From: Baekduia soli
Lineage (GTDB): Bacteria; Actinomycetota; Thermoleophilia; Solirubrobacterales; Solirubrobacteraceae
Direction: 5' to 3'
DNA length: 64,000 nt
Assembly (NCBI RefSeq): GCF_007970665.1
Contig: NZ_CP042430.1
Span: 1,550,001-1,614,000, forward strand
In this document: positions 3,003-52,198 of the stretch, in pieces
Layout of the letters: each line of letters begins with the position of its first letter
How positions within the stretch are numbered: the stretch's first letter is position 1
Translations under genes and position numbers: made by a program
The notes under the pieces: model-generated
The model's database searches: none
Seen by the model: only the letters and a program-made list of their open reading frames with translations
What the model was told of the DNA's origin: nothing

Positions 3003-3733
3003 GACGGCGCCGCCCCGCGTGCGATCACGTGCGACTGCGCCTGGCTGACCAGCGCCAGGGTCGCGACGAGGTAGAGGACCGCGGCGTCGCCACCGGGCCA
3101 GTGGACGCCCGCGCCCTCCGCCAGGAAGAACACGCCGAACGCGCTCAGCAGGACCCCGACGCCCCACTTGAGCTCGGTCTCGGGCAGGCGGGCGAGCGGG
3201 CGGTGCAGCACGACCGCCAGGCCGGCCACGGCCACGACCGCCGCGCCCGCGCCCACGAGGGCCGGAGCCGGGCCGCTGGGACGCGCCGCCAGCGCCGTCG
3301 TGATCACGACGACCTCGATGCCCTCCAGCAGCACGCCCTTGAACGCGACGACCCGCGCCGCCCAGTCGGGGCGGCCCGGCTCGGGCAGGGGCGCGCCGGC
3401 CAGATCCTCGCGCGTCTCGAGGTACTCGGCCAGCGAGGACGACCGTGCGCGCCGCCCCGCCAGGCGCAGGGTGCCCTTGCGCAGCCACTCGAGGCCGAAG
3501 AGCAGGAGCAGGCACCCGATCACCACGCGCAGGGCGTCGAGCGGTACCGACCCGAGCAGCACCGGACCCAGCAGCGCCGCGAGCGCGGCGCAGGCCACGA
3601 CCGCGGCCGCGGCGCCCGCCAGCGCGTCGGACGGACGCCGCGTGGCGGCGACGGCGAGGACGATCGCCACGGCCTCCAGCAGCTCGACGCCGACCGCGAC
3701 GCCCGTGCCCAGAGCCACCAGGAGGAAGGTCAT
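2999..3733 (-). CDS. Seven-helix integral membrane protein, COG4280-like
   Basis: 244-residue polytopic membrane protein with about seven hydrophobic segments. Two are related to each other and hold conserved acidic residues inside the membrane: VELLEAV in helix 1 and LLEGIEVV after the central cytoplasmic loop. Such duplicated acidic motifs are a hallmark of small cation or metal transporters (LysE/UPF0016-like superfamilies), and the overall pattern resembles the uncharacterised COG4280 membrane proteins. The central loop (about residues 85-125) is Arg-rich and cytoplasmic. It is followed by a coupled 67-residue membrane protein. A transport role is inference; the substrate is unknown. Confidence 0.65.
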
Positions 3734-3764
3734 CGCCTGGCGGCCCGGGAACGGAGGGGGTGGC

Positions 3765-4862
3765 TCAGGCCACGCCGATCTCGTCGCGCTTGCGCGCGAT
3801 GGCGTCGATCATCTCGTCGTAGGCGTCGGCGAACTGCTTGACGCCGTCGTGCTCGAGCGCGGAGGTGATCTCGTCCAGGGAGACCCCGGCCGCGCGGAGC
3901 TCGTCGAGCTGGCGGCGGGCCTCGTCGACGCCCTCCCGCAGGGTCGCGCGCACCTCGCCGCCGGCGTCGCGGAACGCGTCGATCGTGGCGTCGGGCACGG
4001 TCGTCACCGTGTCGCGTCCGACGAGCTCGTCGATGTACAGGGTCTGGGAGTAGGCCTTGTTCTTGACGCCCGTCGACGCCCACAGCGGGCGCTGCACGTT
4101 GGCGCCGGCCTGGGCCAGGCGCTGGAACTCGGCCCCGCCGAAGATCGGCACGAAGACGTCGGCGTAGGCCAGCTTGGCGTTGGCGACCGCGATGCGGCCC
4201 CGCAGCGGCGAGTCCTCGGGCAGCGCGTCGTCGACCTTGGAGTCGATGCGCGAGACGAAGAAGCTCGCGACGGAGGCGATCGCGTGGAGGTCCTCGCCGG
4301 CGTCGACGCGCGCCTGGAGCGCTCGGACGTAGGCGCCCGCGACCTGGTGGTAGCGCTCGCGCGAGAACAGGAGCGTCACGTTGACGCTGACGCCCTCGCG
4401 GGTCAGCTGCTCGAACGCCTCGACGCCGGGCAGCGTGCCGGGGACCTTGATCATGACGTTGGGCCGGTCGACGAGCGCGCGGAGCTCGTGGCCGCGGCGG
4501 ACCGCCTCGGGCGCGTCGAAGGCCATGGCGGCCTCCTCCTCGATCGAGATGTAGCCGTCGGCGCCGTCGGTGGATTCCCAGATCGGGCGCACGAGGTCGC
4601 ACGCCGCCTGGATGTCGGCGATCGCGCACGTCTCGAAGACCTGCTCGGGCGTCGCGTCGGCCGGCGCTCCGGCGATGTCGTCGTCGTACAGGTCGGAGCC
4701 CAGCACCGCCTTGGAGAAGATCGAGGGGTTCGACGTGCCGCCGGTGATGGCGTCCTCGCGCATCAGGCGCTCGAGGAGCCCGTCGGCCAGCGCCGGGCGG
4801 GCGACGTTGTCGTACCAGACGCTCTGCCCCAGCGCCGCCAGCTGCTTCCACTTGCTGCTCAT
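3765..4862 (-). CDS. tal: Transaldolase
   Basis: 365-residue transaldolase of the mycobacterial/actinobacterial type. It transfers a dihydroxyacetone unit between sugar phosphates in the non-oxidative pentose phosphate pathway (cytosolic TIM barrel). The Schiff-base lysine is K139 in the MIKVPGT motif; TSNPSIF at residues 43-49 (usually TSNPTIF) and the FVSRID segment are also typical. Length is normal for this subclass. It lies 66 bases downstream of aceB on the same strand, so it may be the last gene of the glc-aceB transcript, although transaldolase is not directly part of glycolate use and could have its own promoter. Confidence 0.95.
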
Positions 4863-43565: not shown

Positions 43566-43953
43566 CGGCGCAGCTTGCCATCGCGCGACGCCCCGCGCCA
43601 GCCGGCCCCACGGACCACGGTCCTGGTGGCGTCTGCGGGGACCGACCGCCAGGCGGCGTCGTGGCGCCGGCGCAGCGGCGGTCCGACGGTGTCGGCGAGC
43701 CGGGACCCCGTCCATGCCAGGGTCTGCGATGAGCCCGGTCGCGGGCGCCCATCGAGCCCCAGGCCGATGCAGGGCATCCACCAGACGACCGACGGTCGGC
43801 CCTGAGAAGTCACCGCCGCGTCCGGCCACCCGCGGCCCGCAAGCCTCAATCCTCGGCGCACGGCGTCGCCGTCATCGAGATGACGGTCGCCGTCCCGCCG
43901 GGCCGGCCGCCGGGGAGTCCCACACGTGACCGTCTGTCCGAAAAGGAGCCCTC
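43566..43953. other. Divergent intergenic region, no gene seen
   Basis: 388 bases between the RidA gene (minus) and the TPP-enzyme operon (plus). Open frames here have no family resemblance. An AAGGAG ribosome site for the downstream gene is at 43943-43948. The region presumably holds the operon promoter, but no confident -35/-10 pair was found. Confidence 0.5.
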
Positions 43954-45741
43954 ATGGCCAGCCGCACCGTTGCGCAGTTCGCTCTCAACCGCTTCGCCGA
44001 CTGGGGCATCAAGCGCATCTACGGCTACCCCGGCGACGGTATCAACGGCTTCCTGGGCGCCTTTCACGAGGTGGGCGACCGCATCGCCTTCACCCAGGTC
44101 CGCCACGAGGAGATCGCCTCCTTCGCCGCATGTGCTCATGCGAAGTTCACCGGGGAGGTGGGAGTCTGCATGGCCACGTCGGGTCCCGGCGCGATCCATC
44201 TGCTCAACGGCCTGTACGACGCCAAGCTCGACCACCAGCCGGTCGTGGCCATCGTGGGGCAGCAGGCGCGGATGGGCCTGGGATCCAACTACCAGCAGGA
44301 GGTCGACCTCACCTCGCTCTACAAGGACGTCGCGTCGGAGTTCGTGCAGGTCTGCATGGTCCCCGAGCAGATGCCCCACCTGGTCGATCGCGCGATCAGG
44401 GTCGCCAAGGCCTCGCGGACGCCGACGTGCATCATCGTGCCCAACGACGTCCAGGAGATGGCCTACTCCGAGCCGCCGCGGGAGCACGGCGCCGTCTTCT
44501 CCTCCGACGTGGCGGCCGGCCGCGTCCACATCGGCCCCGACGACAGCCAGCTGCAACGCGCCGCCGAGATCCTCAACGCCGGCGAGAAGGTCGCGATCCT
44601 CGTCGGGCAGGGCGCCAAGCGCGCGGCCGCCGAAGTCGAGCAGGTCGCCGAGCTGCTGGGCGCCGGTGTGGCCAAGGCGCTCAACGGCCGCGCGGTGGTG
44701 CCCGACGACCTCCCCTACGTCACGGGCTCGATCGGGCTGCTGGGCACCAAGCCCTCCTACGACATGATGGAGGGCTGCGACACGTTTCTCATGGTCGGGT
44801 CGAGCTTCCCGTATGCGGAGTTCCTGCCCGAGCCGGGCTCGGCGCGCGGCGTGCAGATCGACATCGACCAGCGGCTGGTCGGGATGCGCTATCCGATGGA
44901 GGTCAACCTCGTCGGCGACGCGACTGAGACGTTGCGCGCGCTGATCGGCCGGCTGGAGCGCAAGGAGGACCGTTCCTGGCGGCAGGGCATCGAGGAGAAC
45001 GTCGAGCGGTGGTGGGCCATCCTGGACGAGCGCGCCCATCAGTCGGCCGACCCGGTCAACCCGCAGCGAGTCTTCCACGAGCTCAGCAAGCGGCTGCCCG
45101 ATAACTGCATCCTGACGACGGACTCGGGCTCGGCCACCAACTGGTGGGCTCGGCACCTGCGCATGCGCAAGGGGATGGACGCCGCGCTGAGCGGCACGCT
45201 GGCGACGATGTGCCCGGCGCTGCCCTACGCGCTGGCGGCGAAGTTCGCCTTTCCGGACCGGCCCGTGATCGCGTCGAGCGGCGACGGCGCCATGCAGATG
45301 ATCGGCAACGCGGCGCTCATCGACCTCGCTCATTACGCCAAGTGCTGGTCCAATCAGCAGCTGGTCGTGGTGGTCCTGCACAACAACGACCTCAACCAGG
45401 TCACCTGGGAGCAGCGGGTGATGTCGGGCGACCCCAGGCTCGAGGCGTCCCAGGCGCTGCCCGACTTCCCGTATGCCGAGTACGCCCGGATGCTCGGCCT
45501 GCACGGCGTGCGCGTCGACCGGCCCGAGGATCTGGGCGCGGCCTGGGACGAGGTCCTGGGCGCCGGCAGGCCCGCGCTCCTGGAGGTCATCACCGACCCG
45601 GAGGTCCCGCCGCTGCCACCGCACATCCGCTTCGAGCAGGCCAAGGGCCTGGCCAGCGCCCTGCGCGCCGGCGAGCCGCATGCCGGGCGGATCATCAAGG
45701 GCTCGGTCAAGGGCAAGCTCGCGGAGTTCGTGACCCGATGA
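43954..45741 (+). CDS. Thiamine pyrophosphate-requiring enzyme, pyruvate oxidase-like
   Basis: 595 residues. PYR domain with activating glutamate E52 (RHEEIASFAACAHAKFTGE), a central domain (about 195-330), and a PP domain with SSGDGAMQM and an intact NN pair (VVLHNNDLNQVTWEQ). The sequence is closest in style to pyruvate oxidase/dehydrogenase (PoxB-like) proteins often annotated as thiamine pyrophosphate-requiring. The C-terminal tail (about 560-595) is short and basic, not the lipid-binding helix of E. coli PoxB. It heads an operon with a GMC oxidoreductase and a dehydratase, suggesting decarboxylation of a 2-oxo acid made there. Confidence 0.9.
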   Translation: MASRTVAQFALNRFADWGIKRIYGYPGDGINGFLGAFHEVGDRIAFTQVRHEEIASFAACAHAKFTGEVGVCMATSGPGAIHLLNGLYDAKLDHQPVVAIVGQQARMGLGSNYQQEVDLTSLYKDVASEFVQVCMVPEQMPHLVDRAIRVAKASRTPTCIIVPNDVQEMAYSEPPREHGAVFSSDVAAGRVHIGPDDSQLQRAAEILNAGEKVAILVGQGAKRAAAEVEQVAELLGAGVAKALNGRAVVPDDLPYVTGSIGLLGTKPSYDMMEGCDTFLMVGSSFPYAEFLPEPGSARGVQIDIDQRLVGMRYPMEVNLVGDATETLRALIGRLERKEDRSWRQGIEENVERWWAILDERAHQSADPVNPQRVFHELSKRLPDNCILTTDSGSATNWWARHLRMRKGMDAALSGTLATMCPALPYALAAKFAFPDRPVIASSGDGAMQMIGNAALIDLAHYAKCWSNQQLVVVVLHNNDLNQVTWEQRVMSGDPRLEASQALPDFPYAEYARMLGLHGVRVDRPEDLGAAWDEVLGAGRPALLEVITDPEVPPLPPHIRFEQAKGLASALRAGEPHAGRIIKGSVKGKLAEFVTR

Positions 45742-46907: not shown

Positions 46908-48622
46908 GCGGTGAGGACCGGCGTCGGCTCGCCAAGGGCTCCCGCTTCCCCAAGGACAACGACTCGGCGTTCCTGCTGGACGTCCACCGGCGGGCCATCC
47001 CCGGTCGCGAGCGGATGCAGCGCTTCGCCGACGACGACGAGATCGACCTGCTCATCGTCGGCGCCGGCGCCGGAGGGTCGGTGCTCGCTCAGCGCCTGGC
47101 CCGGCGCGGGTGGCGGATCGCCATCATCGAATCGGGGCCGTTCTGGGATCCCGACGCCGACTGGGTCTCTGACGAAGCCGGCCAGCACAAGATCTACTGG
47201 ACCGCACCGCGCGTCATCGGCGGGGAGGACCCGGTGGAGCTGGGCAAGAACAACTCCGGCCACGGCGTCGGCGGCTCGATGATCCACTACGCGGGCTACA
47301 CGCCCCGCTTCCATCCCTCGGACTTCGACACCCGCACGCGCGAGGGCGTCGGCGCCGACTGGCCGATCTCCTATGCCGACCTCAAGGCGCACTACGAGCG
47401 CGTCGAGAGCGAGCTGCCGGTCGCCGGCCAGGACTGGCCGTGGGGCGATCCGCACCGCTATCCCCATGCGCCGCACCCGATCTCCGGCGCCGCCGACCAG
47501 GCGCGCCGCGGCATGATCGGCGCCGGGATCGAGGTCCGCATCGGGCCGGTGGGCATCCCCAACGGCACCTTCGGCAACCGCCCGCACTGCATCTACCGCG
47601 GCTTCTGCCTGCAGGGCTGCAAGGTCAACGCCAAGGCGTCGCCCTACGTGACCCACCTCCCCGACGCGATCGAGCACGGCGTCGAGGTGCGGGCCGACGC
47701 CCACGCGCTCCGCGTCGAGACCGACCCGTCCTCGGGGCGCTGCACCGGCGTGACCTACGAGCACGAGGGCCGCCAGCGCTTCCAGCGTGCCGCCGCGGTC
47801 GCGGTCTGCGGCTATGCGATCGAGACGCCGCGGCTGCTGCTGAACTCCCACAGCGCCCGTCACCCCGACGGGCTGGCCAACGGCCACGACCAGGTCGGGC
47901 GCTACATCATGGTCCAGGGCGCCACGCAGATCGCCGGACGCTTCCCCGAGCCGCTGCGCCAGTACAAGGCGCCGCCGCCGGAGATCTCCTCCGAGCAGTT
48001 CTACGAGACCGACCCGTCGCGCGGCTTCGCGCGCGGCTTCTCGATCCAGACGGTCGGCCCGCTGCCGATCGGCTGGGCCGAGCACGTGGTGGCCGACGGC
48101 CACTGGGGACACGGGCTGCGCGAGTACATGCGCGACTACAACCACTGGACGACGCTCGGGCTGCTGTGCGAGCTGCTGCCCCAGGCGCGCAACCGCGTCA
48201 CGCTGGCCGACGAGGTCGACGCGCACGGCATGCCGGTCGCGCGCTTTGACTACACCCAGTGCGACAACGACCGGGCCAACATCGCCTATGGCGCCGACGT
48301 GCTGGAGCGCGTATGGGAGGCGGCGGGAGCGCAGGACACGCTGCGCGTCGATCGCTACGCCCATCTGGTCGGCGGCTGCCGCATGGGCACGACGCCTGAG
48401 GAGAGCGTCATCGACTCCGACCACCGCGCGTGGGGGATCGACAACCTCTTCGTCTGCGACGGCAGCGTCATGCCGACCGAGGGTGCGGCCAACCCGGCGC
48501 TGACGATCATGGCGCTGGCCTCCCGGCTGGCGCAGCGGCTGGGCGACAAGCGGGTGGCCCGTGCGCCGCGCACGACGCCTCGCGCCGTCGCGGGCGCCCG
48601 GGCCGGCGGGTCGGGCCGATGA
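46904..48622 (+). CDS. GMC family oxidoreductase (gluconate/sugar dehydrogenase-like)
   Basis: 572-residue flavoprotein. FAD-binding GAGAGGSVLAQRLARRGWR sits at about residues 51-69, followed by the ESG end of the second strand. The middle has GHGVGGSMIHYAGYTPRFHPSDF, the family FAD clamp. The C-terminal catalytic part holds HLVGGCRMGTTPEESV and the closing DGSVMPTEGAANPALTIMALA, the standard GMC signature with the active-site His/Asn pair. It oxidises an alcohol or sugar hydroxyl; with subunit 3 it should feed electrons to the respiratory chain. No signal peptide is present. Confidence 0.93.
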   Translation: MSGEDRRRLAKGSRFPKDNDSAFLLDVHRRAIPGRERMQRFADDDEIDLLIVGAGAGGSVLAQRLARRGWRIAIIESGPFWDPDADWVSDEAGQHKIYWTAPRVIGGEDPVELGKNNSGHGVGGSMIHYAGYTPRFHPSDFDTRTREGVGADWPISYADLKAHYERVESELPVAGQDWPWGDPHRYPHAPHPISGAADQARRGMIGAGIEVRIGPVGIPNGTFGNRPHCIYRGFCLQGCKVNAKASPYVTHLPDAIEHGVEVRADAHALRVETDPSSGRCTGVTYEHEGRQRFQRAAAVAVCGYAIETPRLLLNSHSARHPDGLANGHDQVGRYIMVQGATQIAGRFPEPLRQYKAPPPEISSEQFYETDPSRGFARGFSIQTVGPLPIGWAEHVVADGHWGHGLREYMRDYNHWTTLGLLCELLPQARNRVTLADEVDAHGMPVARFDYTQCDNDRANIAYGADVLERVWEAAGAQDTLRVDRYAHLVGGCRMGTTPEESVIDSDHRAWGIDNLFVCDGSVMPTEGAANPALTIMALASRLAQRLGDKRVARAPRTTPRAVAGARAGGSGR

Positions 48623-49719
48623 GCGGCGCGGCCGTTCGCGCGACGGTCGGCACGCTCGACGTCACGGTGTGCACGGTCCCGACCGACGCGCCCGAGTCCG
48701 ACGGGACGCTGGCGTGGGACGCCACGACGGTGGTCCTGGTCGAGGCCCACGGCGGCGGCTGCAGCGGCCTGGGCCTCAGCTACGGGCCGCCGGCGATCGC
48801 CGCGATCATCGAGGGTCAGCTGGCGGCGGTCGTGGCGGGACGTCCGGTGCTCGACGTGCCGGCCTCGTGGCTGGCGATGCGGCGGGCGGTGCGCAACTTC
48901 GGCGGGGTCGGCCCGTCGGCCATGGCGATCTCGGCGGTGGACGTGGCGCTGTGGGACCTCGCCGCCCAGACCCTGGAGCTCCCGCTGTGCTCGCTGCTGG
49001 GCCGCGTACACGACCGTGTGCCGATCTACGGCTCGGGCGGCTTCTGCTCCTACTCCGACGCGCGCTTGGCCCGGCAGCTGGGCGGCTGGGCGGCCGACGG
49101 CATCGGGCGCGTCAAGATGAAGCTCGGGCGTGAGCCCGAGCGCGACCGCCAGCGCCTGCAGGTCGCCCGCGACGCGATCGGGCCCGACGTCGAACTGTTC
49201 GTCGACGCCAACGGCGCCTTCGACCGCAACGCCGCCCTGGGCTGGGCCGAGGTCTACGCCGGCTTCGACGTGCGCTACTTCGAGGAGCCGGTGTCCTCCG
49301 ACGACCTGCAGGGCCTCGCGTTGCTGCGCCGCCGCGCGCCGGGGGGCATGGCGATCGCGGCGGGGGAGTACGGCTTCGACCTGCCCTACTTCCGCGACAT
49401 GGTCACGGCCGTCGACGTCCAGCAGGCCGACGTCACGCGCTGCGGAGGCATCACCGGCCTGCTGCGCGTCGGAGCGCTGTGCCAGGCCCACCAGGTGCCG
49501 TTCTCGGCGCACTGCGCGCCGGCCATCAGCGCCCACGCCTGCACCGCCGTGCAACCGCTGGCCCACCTGGAGTACTTCCACGACCATGTTCGGCTCGAGT
49601 CGATGCTGTTCGACGGCACGCTGTCGCCACAGGAGGGATGCCTCGTGCCGGATCTGGACCGCCCCGGCTTGGGCCTTCGGCCTCGTCGTGAGGTGATTGC
49701 CCGCTTCGCGCAAGGCTGA
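48619..49719 (+). CDS. Enolase-superfamily dehydratase/racemase (mandelate racemase-like)
   Basis: 366 residues; the ATG overlaps the GMC stop (ATGA). The mandelate-racemase/muconate-lactonizing fold is clear: catalytic KxK (VKMKLG, near residue 170), metal ligands in VDANGAF, FEEPV and AAGEYGF, and a further His in SAHCAPAIS. The family takes a proton next to a carboxylate; sugar-acid dehydratases (galactonate, gluconate) are the commonest members. Placed after a sugar dehydrogenase, it probably dehydrates the aldonic acid formed, giving the 2-keto-3-deoxy acid that the TPP enzyme or others could use. The substrate is not proven. Confidence 0.9.
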   Translation: MSGAAVRATVGTLDVTVCTVPTDAPESDGTLAWDATTVVLVEAHGGGCSGLGLSYGPPAIAAIIEGQLAAVVAGRPVLDVPASWLAMRRAVRNFGGVGPSAMAISAVDVALWDLAAQTLELPLCSLLGRVHDRVPIYGSGGFCSYSDARLARQLGGWAADGIGRVKMKLGREPERDRQRLQVARDAIGPDVELFVDANGAFDRNAALGWAEVYAGFDVRYFEEPVSSDDLQGLALLRRRAPGGMAIAAGEYGFDLPYFRDMVTAVDVQQADVTRCGGITGLLRVGALCQAHQVPFSAHCAPAISAHACTAVQPLAHLEYFHDHVRLESMLFDGTLSPQEGCLVPDLDRPGLGLRPRREVIARFAQG

Positions 49720-49859
49720 GCATCGGGGCCAGTGACGTCGTCGGCTGCCGGCGGACGGCCGTCGGCGGGCCGCGCGGAGCGCTGATCTGTCCTGGAAGCC
49801 ATAGGGTGCTCCGATCTTGTGGGTGGAGGCCCTGCGGAGCTACCGGCACTTGCGGTGGC

Positions 49860-50070
49860 GTGGGGGCCCAGAGGCCGCGCTGCGGCGTCTTCCGGCTCCT
49901 TCCCGCCACCGGGCGGTGCTGGCCGACCTGGGCCCATGGAACTGCTGCGCTTCGGCCGCTTCGCGCCGGCCTCCGCGCGACGCACGGGCCAGGAGCAGTT
50001 CGCAGGGGAGGGCGGCGCGCTGCTGCTGGCCGGCAACGCGCTGTACGGCAGCCTGTCGCGCGATGACGTC
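49860..50070 (+). pseudogene. Remnant of an FAD-dependent phytoene dehydrogenase-like oxidoreductase
   Basis: Two adjoining frames read RHRAVLADLG and then PMELLRFGRFAPASARR, followed by EQFAGEGGALLLAGNALYGSLSRDD. This is close to the middle of the NAD(P)/FAD-dependent oxidoreductases related to phytoene desaturase (LGP-LLRFARF...F-GE-ARLLLAGNALH). The shift lies at GGGCCCATGG (49931-49940). No FAD-binding N-terminus or C-terminus is near, so it is a short internal fragment of a lost gene. Limits are approximate. Confidence 0.45.
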
Positions 50071-50163
50071 GATCGAGGTCACGGTGGACGCACGACGGGG
50101 TGTGCGCACCGACATCGAGCGGGGTGGACACGACGTCCGCGCCGATCGGACCTCGGGACGGCG

Positions 50164-50502
50164 ATGGACATGATCGCCGAGCGAGTGGTCGAGACCCGTG
50201 CCCGCACCTGGCAGGCCCACGACGCCAACGGACGCCCGCTGAGGCGCACGCTCGGCATGGCTGGCTGGGGCGGCGCGAGGCCGGACACCGAGGAGAACGA
50301 TCTCATCAAGAAGGGCTTCACGGCTGCCGGGGCGGTGTCCATCGAGAACCAGGCCCGCATATGACACCCGAGCACGGTCGCCGGTCTGGTGATCTCGTTC
50401 GGGCGCGGCGGCGCCACCACGTTCCAGCAGGATCTGCGGAACCCCGACCCATCCTGACCCGACCCGCGGTTCACACGCACGAGCGCGATCGCCGACCGGC
50501 AT
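50164..50502 (+). pseudogene. Relic of selenocysteine-type formate dehydrogenase alpha subunit
   Basis: From 50164 the frame reads DMIAERVVETRARTW, then GRPLRRTLGMAGWGGA, EENDLIKKGFTAAGAVSIENQARI, an in-frame TGA (50362), and HPSTVAGL, FGRGGATTFQQDL. In formate dehydrogenases of the FdnG/FdoG type this is exactly the segment around the Mo-binding residue, ENQARI-[Sec/Cys]-H-STV. So the TGA is a selenocysteine codon. After QQDLRNPDPS a second TGA (50455) occurs, and in the same frame PDPRFTRTSAIADRH follows, which in intact enzymes lies some 35-45 residues further on. An internal deletion and the loss of the rest (about 1,000 residues normally) make this a pseudogene. Confidence 0.75.
50362..50394 (+). 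promoter_or_regulatory. Bacterial SECIS-like hairpin after the in-frame UGA
   Basis: Behind the TGA at 50362-50364 comes a 7-bp stem GGTCGCC (50376-50382) / GGTGATC (50388-50394, with two G-U pairs) closed by the loop GGTCT (50383-50387). The loop begins with G 18 bases after the UGA and contains GGU, matching the rules for SelB-binding elements and resembling the E. coli fdhF loop (AGGUCU). It supports the selenocysteine reading. Confidence 0.6.
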
Positions 50503-50952
50503 GAGCGTGCGGCACTTCCCCCACACGCCGGTGATCCTCAAGGAGGCCTTCGGCCGCTGCCGGACGCGCCGCGGATCGCCGGCGATCGATGTCGGGGGCG
50601 AGCGGGCGCGCGGGTGAGCGGGCGCATCCGACGGTGCAGGAGATCGTCACCGGCTCGCTGGCCGGCGAGGAGCACCTCATCGTCGTGGTGGTCGCGGATG
50701 CGACGAACATCGCGCGGCTCATCGACGGTGACCAGCGCGTGGTGGCGCGCGTCGTGCGTCACGCCGACCCGTCGACCGCCGAGCGGGTGGGGTTGCCGCG
50801 TGGCGGCGGCTACGCCGTCGGCGTCGCAGTGACGTGTCAGCCGCGCCCGCGGCTGGCGGTTCCGCGGGCCGCTGTGGTGCGCATGACATTCGCACGAGCC
50901 AGGCTGCCGACGCCGAGTTCTGGGATCACGCGGGCCGCGCGGCCGTCCCGGC
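50503..50952. other. Stretch without a recognisable gene
   Basis: 450 bases between the formate dehydrogenase relic and the alcohol dehydrogenase. A plus-strand frame from 50589 (containing TVQEIVTGSLAGEEHLIVVVVADATNIARL) looks more protein-like than the other frames here, but I do not recognise a family and it fades into Arg/Pro-rich sequence after about 75 codons. Probably a further gene remnant. Confidence 0.35.
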
Positions 50953-52065
50953 TCATGCCGTCATGGAGATGAGCGCGCGGCCGAGGTTGGCCTTCGAGCC
51001 CGCCCAGTCAGACGCCGTGATGGCGTCGTTGATCTGCTCCAGGGGATAGACCTGGGAGACGAGGTCGTCGAACGGCAGCTCGTCGCGGCGCCGGGCCAGC
51101 CAGTCCAGCGTGCGCGGCAGCATCCACTGCTCGTAGTTGACGATCCCGACCAACGTGCGGTTGGAGCGCACGATCTGCTGGGGCACGACCTCGGTCGCAC
51201 GGTCGGCCATCGTGTTGCCGATGAGCACATAGCGGCCGCCGGCGCGCATGGACTGGATGCCCTCGGGCACGACGGCGGGCACGCCCGCCATCTCGATCAC
51301 GACGTCGGCCCCGGCGCCGCCCGTCAGCCGCTGGATCTCGGCGATCCGCTCCTCGGGCGAGGTCAGCTGCGAGATGTCGATGGTCTCGTGGGCACCGAAG
51401 CGCCGGGCCAGCTCGAGGCGCTCGGGCACCATGTCGATCCCGATGACCAGGCCCGCGCCCGAGTCGCGGGCCAGCGCGGCGGCATAGATGCCCAGACCGC
51501 CGAGGCCCTGGACGACGACGGTGTCGCCGAAGCGGATCTGGCCGGCGTGCACACCGGCCAGAGCCTGGGCGATCGCGCAGTTGGCCGGAACGGCGTGCTC
51601 GGTCTTGGTCGCCTCGGGCAGCTTGTAGATCCACTGGCCCTCGCGCAGCACGTAGTAGTCGCCGAACGCACCGTGGAAGTGCGGCGGGTCATACACGGTC
51701 AACGGCGCACGCACCGCGTAGCGGTTGGGACAGGCCACCGAGCCCGCAGCGCAGGTCGGGCAGCCATCGCAGACCCGGAAGTACGCATAGGCCACCCGAT
51801 CGCCCTCACGCAGCTCGCGGCCCAGCGTGTCGCGCTTGCGCCGCTCGCCGAGCTCGACGATCTCGCCGATCATCTCGTGCCCCGACGCGCACGGCAGCGC
51901 GGTCAGCATCCCGAGCTCACCACGGTACATGTGCACGTCGGAGCCGCAGATCCCCGCAGCCAGCACGCGCACGAGCACCTGGTCGGGCTCGGGCCTGAGC
52001 ACCGGAAACTCGTCGATCTCAAACGGCGTGTTCGGCCCAGGCGAAAAGGCGATGCGTCCCTTCAC
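50953..52065 (-). CDS. Zinc-dependent medium-chain alcohol dehydrogenase
   Basis: 370 residues. Catalytic zinc site C40, H63, E64 (GICGSD ... SGHEMIGE), structural zinc cysteines C99, C102, C105 and C112, and NAD(H)-binding VQGLGGLGIYAAALA. It oxidises an alcohol or reduces an aldehyde or ketone. The GTG at 52065 is chosen because GGGAG stands six bases before it; open sequence further upstream is not family-like. It is the last gene on the minus strand after hyuA3-hyuB3, separated from hyuB3 by a truncated CoA-transferase, so all may have formed one pathway operon. A secondary alcohol dehydrogenase feeding a ketone to an acetone-carboxylase-like HyuAB3 is an attractive inference. Confidence 0.9.
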   Translation of the reverse strand: MKGRIAFSPGPNTPFEIDEFPVLRPEPDQVLVRVLAAGICGSDVHMYRGELGMLTALPCASGHEMIGEIVELGERRKRDTLGRELREGDRVAYAYFRVCDGCPTCAAGSVACPNRYAVRAPLTVYDPPHFHGAFGDYYVLREGQWIYKLPEATKTEHAVPANCAIAQALAGVHAGQIRFGDTVVVQGLGGLGIYAAALARDSGAGLVIGIDMVPERLELARRFGAHETIDISQLTSPEERIAEIQRLTGGAGADVVIEMAGVPAVVPEGIQSMRAGGRYVLIGNTMADRATEVVPQQIVRSNRTLVGIVNYEQWMLPRTLDWLARRRDELPFDDLVSQVYPLEQINDAITASDWAGSKANLGRALISMTA

Positions 52066-52198
52066 ACAGATCACTCCCAACTCGTGCAGCGGTCGGAGAT
52101 CAGCTCGGACCCCTCGGGCGCCGAGAGCTCCGCCGTCACACAGCGTTGTTCCGGGCGACGAACGCCCACTGCAGCGAGTGGCCCTCGGGGGGTCGTGC

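Follow-up and report, generated by a model that had tools for sequence, protein, structure and literature searches.

Selenoprotein pseudogenes and replacements of selenocysteine (Sec) by cysteine (Cys) are known kinds of object, and the locus described here is an ordinary dead gene, a further instance of such a kind and no new system. Formate dehydrogenase (FDH) genes with a UGA, together with clustered sel genes, are on record for Actinobacteria; in Corynebacterium aurimucosum, for example, an FDH of the fdnG type is described as UGA-recoded and clustered with selABCD (PMC2830990). The host of the present locus is a bacterium of the genus Conexibacter, and a search of the open-access literature turned up no report of relics of Sec-FDH genes for this genus or for the family to which it belongs. 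Within the window, the whole 64,000-nucleotide stretch of DNA that was analysed, the relic is almost certainly a pseudogene of the alpha subunit of a Sec-FDH (actinobacterial FDH, clade A), most likely decayed in place. Using as reference the intact Sec-FDH of a congener, Conexibacter sp. RYN_258 (genome G003, loci L085/L095), the alignment defines three colinear pieces of the alpha subunit on the plus strand at 50149-50554, correcting the extent of 50164-50502 given in the original prediction. The features of the relic are as follows.

50149-50457, plus strand: piece 1, the Mo-site segment with the UGA (83% DNA identity to the G003 Sec-FDH, 3619-3928; NF041513)
50362-50364, plus strand: in-frame UGA at the Sec position (aligned with the UGA of intact relatives and the UGC of Cys versions)
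50368-50402, plus strand: bSECIS hairpin (lower stem 50368-50373/50397-50402, upper stem 50376-50382/50388-50394, loop GGUCU 50383-50387)
50449-50459, plus strand: junction of deletion 1, in which a single nucleotide and a further segment are missing, 87 bp net and in frame (alignment with G003 3918-4017)
50460-50501, plus strand: piece 2, DPRFTRTSAIADRH (88% DNA identity, G003 4017-4058)
50502-50505, plus strand: junction of deletion 2, with a net loss of 83 bp that shifts the frame (alignment with G003 4058-4146)
50506-50554, plus strand: piece 3, VRHFPHTPVILKEAFG, in the +1 frame (84% DNA identity, G003 4146-4194; 10/15 residues)

The frame that opens at ATG 50164 reads MDMIAERVV...SIENQARI*HPSTVAGLVISFGRGGATTFQQDLRN. 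Its residues 1-95 are colinear with the NCBIfam model of actinobacterial FDH, NF041513 (E 2.9e-43, 147.9 bits), a score far below the 1400 bits required of a full-length match, which is no surprise for a fragment, and TIGR01553 also reports a hit (E 7.5e-16), so that the predicted resemblance of both flanks of the UGA to FDH holds. In a genome-wide profile search the site scores 139 bits (E 2.2e-40). No credible further FDH pieces were found in 49720-50149 and 50555-50937, the weak matches there being low-complexity frames rich in R, A, and P. On the minus strand, a long frame covers the relic (within 49840-50646); it matches the antisense of intact FDH genes and is an antisense shadow. An open frame of 127 codons (50589-50972), located between the relic and the neighboring alcohol dehydrogenase (ADH) gene, matches no family and is possibly spurious, given the G+C content. 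Gene callers would be expected to miss the relic.

Only ~400 bp survive of a gene that comprises ~3,170 bp when intact. At the locus, neither the initial ~107 codons nor ~2.3 kb of the 3' end can be detected, and the full-length frame with 4Fe-4S and cofactor domains that would mark a working enzyme is lacking. The internal deletion that had been predicted is present as deletion 1, from which a second in-frame TGA (50452-50454) arose, but the segments it joins stand just 29 codons apart in the intact gene and are hardly the distant parts of the enzyme that had been described. Likewise, the remainder of the 3' end is gone, as had been proposed, although deletion 2 and piece 3 had been overlooked. 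The iron-sulfur subunit gene that lies 3' of the FDH in G003, as read by eye from the translation, is missing after the relic, where the next annotated gene encodes an ADH on the opposite strand. This ADH gene lies in a 1,154-bp segment (50937-52090) that is 100% identical to positions ~4,222,088-4,223,241 of the host contig G000:C1 (L084 6089-7242). The edges of the two copies have no further sequence in common; the identity reflects either a recent duplication or an assembly join.

The stop in the context ENQARI*H lines up with the UGA codon of relatives, and with C where the enzyme is a Cys version, and thus stands at the Sec/Cys position, as the original prediction had it. Behind it, the bSECIS comprises 13 bp, with a 6-bp lower stem and a 7-bp upper stem capped by an apical GGUCU. 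The predicted 7-bp stem and its loop do fold; however, the 18 nt given as the distance from the UGA to the stem is that to the loop, the upper stem beginning 11 nt after the UGA, and the lower stem had been missed. The 35-nt hairpin core folds at -17.8 kcal/mol (z -2.8). This hairpin is shared by intact FDHs of the genus that bear the UGA, and the sequence that is identical in G003, G001, G005, and the second Sec-FDH of the host genome was taken as the reference. Relative to it, the relic hairpin has four substitutions and keeps 13/13 pairs, one of them by a two-sided change from C-G to G-U (50380/50390). When four substitutions are placed at random, all pairs are kept in 3.6% of trials, and pairs plus loop in 0.8%. 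Because all pairs survive at this chance level, some of the substitutions may date from the functional period of the gene, which the sequence comparison suggests weakly. Three of the changes replace amino acids that are the same in all 20 relatives compared (S to P, P to A, and G to V). A search of 49700-51000 against Rfam returned no match.

Over 100 codons, the relic is altered at 7 of the 49 columns invariant among 20 relatives, as against 0 or 1 in each relative. Pairwise dN/dS is raised modestly, at 0.39-0.59 when the relic is compared with its clade-A kin as against 0.30-0.45 when these are compared with one another, and the tree branch of the relic measures 0.66 versus 0.055 for its sister G003. 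These comparisons fit a gene that stayed functional through much of its divergence before decaying.

In the protein tree the relic is sister to the G003 Sec-FDH (SH-aLRT 96), as it is in the DNA tree (94/82), from which three rows without the segment were omitted. Both fall inside a clade of Solirubrobacterales Sec-FDHs, labeled clade A in this analysis. The host genome encodes two other FDHs. The UGA-bearing one, at 3.797 Mb, belongs to clade B, while the Cys-FDH, at 2.60 Mb, pairs with a Cys-FDH of G036. From this placement, the relic is a decayed clade-A gene and a copy of neither; with DNA identities of merely 78% and 69%, derivation from a present-day FDH of the same genome is ruled out. 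Two intact genes lie upstream of the relic.

43930-45738, plus strand: thiamine-pyrophosphate (TPP) enzyme of the PRK08273 type, farther upstream (NF006129, E 1.6e-299)
48430-49719, plus strand: MR/MLE (enolase superfamily) dehydratase, just upstream (Pfam PF13378/PF02746)

Homologues of the MR/MLE dehydratase (56-58% identical) are linked to intact FDH genes at three loci (L096, L108, and L165) and those of the TPP enzyme (57-74% identical) at five (L095, L123, L100, L165, and L113); L165 has both. Because the neighbors of the relic are linked to FDH in other genomes, the Sec-FDH probably decayed in place. At E <= 1e-80, the genes flanking the relic have no match in any of the other six genomes of the genus, and the case for decay in place therefore draws on linkage in more distant genomes, among which the order and orientation of the FDH-linked neighbors vary.

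The original prediction held that the lineage has, or had, selenoprotein synthesis, and the genome search bears this out with a tRNA-Sec, selA, selB, selD, and another UGA-containing FDH. The tRNA-Sec (selC; 71.3 bits, anticodon UCA) completes the Sec-decoding gene set and is located together with selB, selA, selD, and the UGA-bearing clade-B FDH in a cluster at 3.787-3.800 Mb. The search for an intact fdh copy returned a full-length Cys-FDH with the motif ENQARVCH (L009, G000:C1 2599643-2602840), whereas the second Sec-FDH (L010/L027) is near full length save for one single-base indel that splits it near 3799525. This Cys-FDH, which pairs with one of G036, represents a Sec/Cys exchange within the family. 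A single-base indel also splits selA near 3793804 (L027, G000:C1 3783000-3802500). In three or four relatives, all genus mates, the selA and Sec-FDH copies are each in one frame. In the host genome, the Cys-FDH is intact, as is rpoB, the one gene outside the FDH and sel genes that was checked for indels. The frameshifts in selA and the second Sec-FDH reflect either an assembly error or a real erosion of the Sec trait. That the host species is losing this trait, as the relic, the two frameshifted genes, and the remaining Cys-FDH would have it, is conceivable but rather unlikely. Elsewhere in the genome, an FDH-like stretch (molybdopterin oxidoreductase; G000:C1 2118291-2119052, L014 and L030) is interrupted by a TAG, with a short open frame, and is possibly a second molybdoenzyme pseudogene.

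Might the relic instead have arrived as a fragment copied from elsewhere, by partial duplication or with horizontally acquired DNA, without ever having functioned as a gene here? The ~400 bp that are left, the recent 1,154-bp duplication only 383 bp away, and the lack of the same neighbors in the six congeners would agree with such an origin. However, the low identity to the two FDHs of the host, the grouping with a congener in the tree, and the linkage of MR/MLE and TPP enzymes to intact FDH genes in other Actinomycetota all speak against it, and we consider it unlikely. The ADH duplication, for its part, covers 50937-52090 only and excludes the relic, so that an origin of the relic as part of that event is ruled out. 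An assembly or sequencing error in an intact gene is barely credible as the source of the lesions. The assembly may contain some indel errors, given the frameshift in each of selA and the other Sec-FDH, but the losses here amount to ~85 bp at a time, the 5' part, and ~2.3 kb, together with many substitutions at invariant sites, and rpoB and the Cys-FDH are intact.

Lastly, the remnant might still function, either through a short peptide that terminates at the UGA or through a SECIS-like hairpin kept for regulation or the binding of SelB. From ATG 50164, 66 codons are open up to the UGA, and the hairpin has kept its loop along with every pair, including the two-sided change; the retention of all pairs, slightly above expectation for a long-dead sequence, counts somewhat against the pseudogene reading. 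Nevertheless, residues invariant in the 20 relatives are altered, the hairpin coincides with amino acid changes tolerated in no relative, a match to any known RNA family is lacking, and the conservation expected from the functional period explains the hairpin, which makes a functional remnant very improbable. We therefore retain the reading of a clade-A Sec-FDH gene that most likely decayed in place. By analogy with intact relatives and the known mechanism, SelB and tRNA-Sec would have read the UGA of the intact gene as selenocysteine, aided by the hairpin behind it. What followed is seen at the locus: the initial ~107 codons, two internal segments, and ~2.3 kb of the 3' end disappeared, and the surviving codons, as their changes show, were freed from constraint. 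The relic now encodes no working enzyme. The clade-B UGA-bearing FDH beside the sel genes, together with the Cys-FDH, may have rendered this copy dispensable.

By itself, the relic alters no general view. It is a clean case in which a selenoprotein gene has died while its recoding signal can still be read and the selenium machinery persists in the genome. Should the frameshifts in selA and the second Sec-FDH prove real, this strain would have been caught losing the Sec trait while keeping the Cys enzyme. Compared with known systems, the relic resembles the G003 Sec-FDH in its Mo-site segment, UGA, and GGUCU hairpin (83-88% DNA identity), but differs from it in retaining ~400 of ~3,170 bp, interrupted by two internal deletions and carrying a second stop as well as a frameshift. 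The host FDH beside selD-selC-selB-selA belongs to the same enzyme family and has the UGA and the SECIS, but is of the other clade, 78% identical in DNA, and near full length. As in C. aurimucosum (PMC2830990), a UGA-recoded fdnG-type FDH occurs in an actinobacterium with sel genes; in that species, however, the FDH is described as recoded and part of the sel cluster, whereas the relic is dead and located 2.2 Mb from the sel genes.
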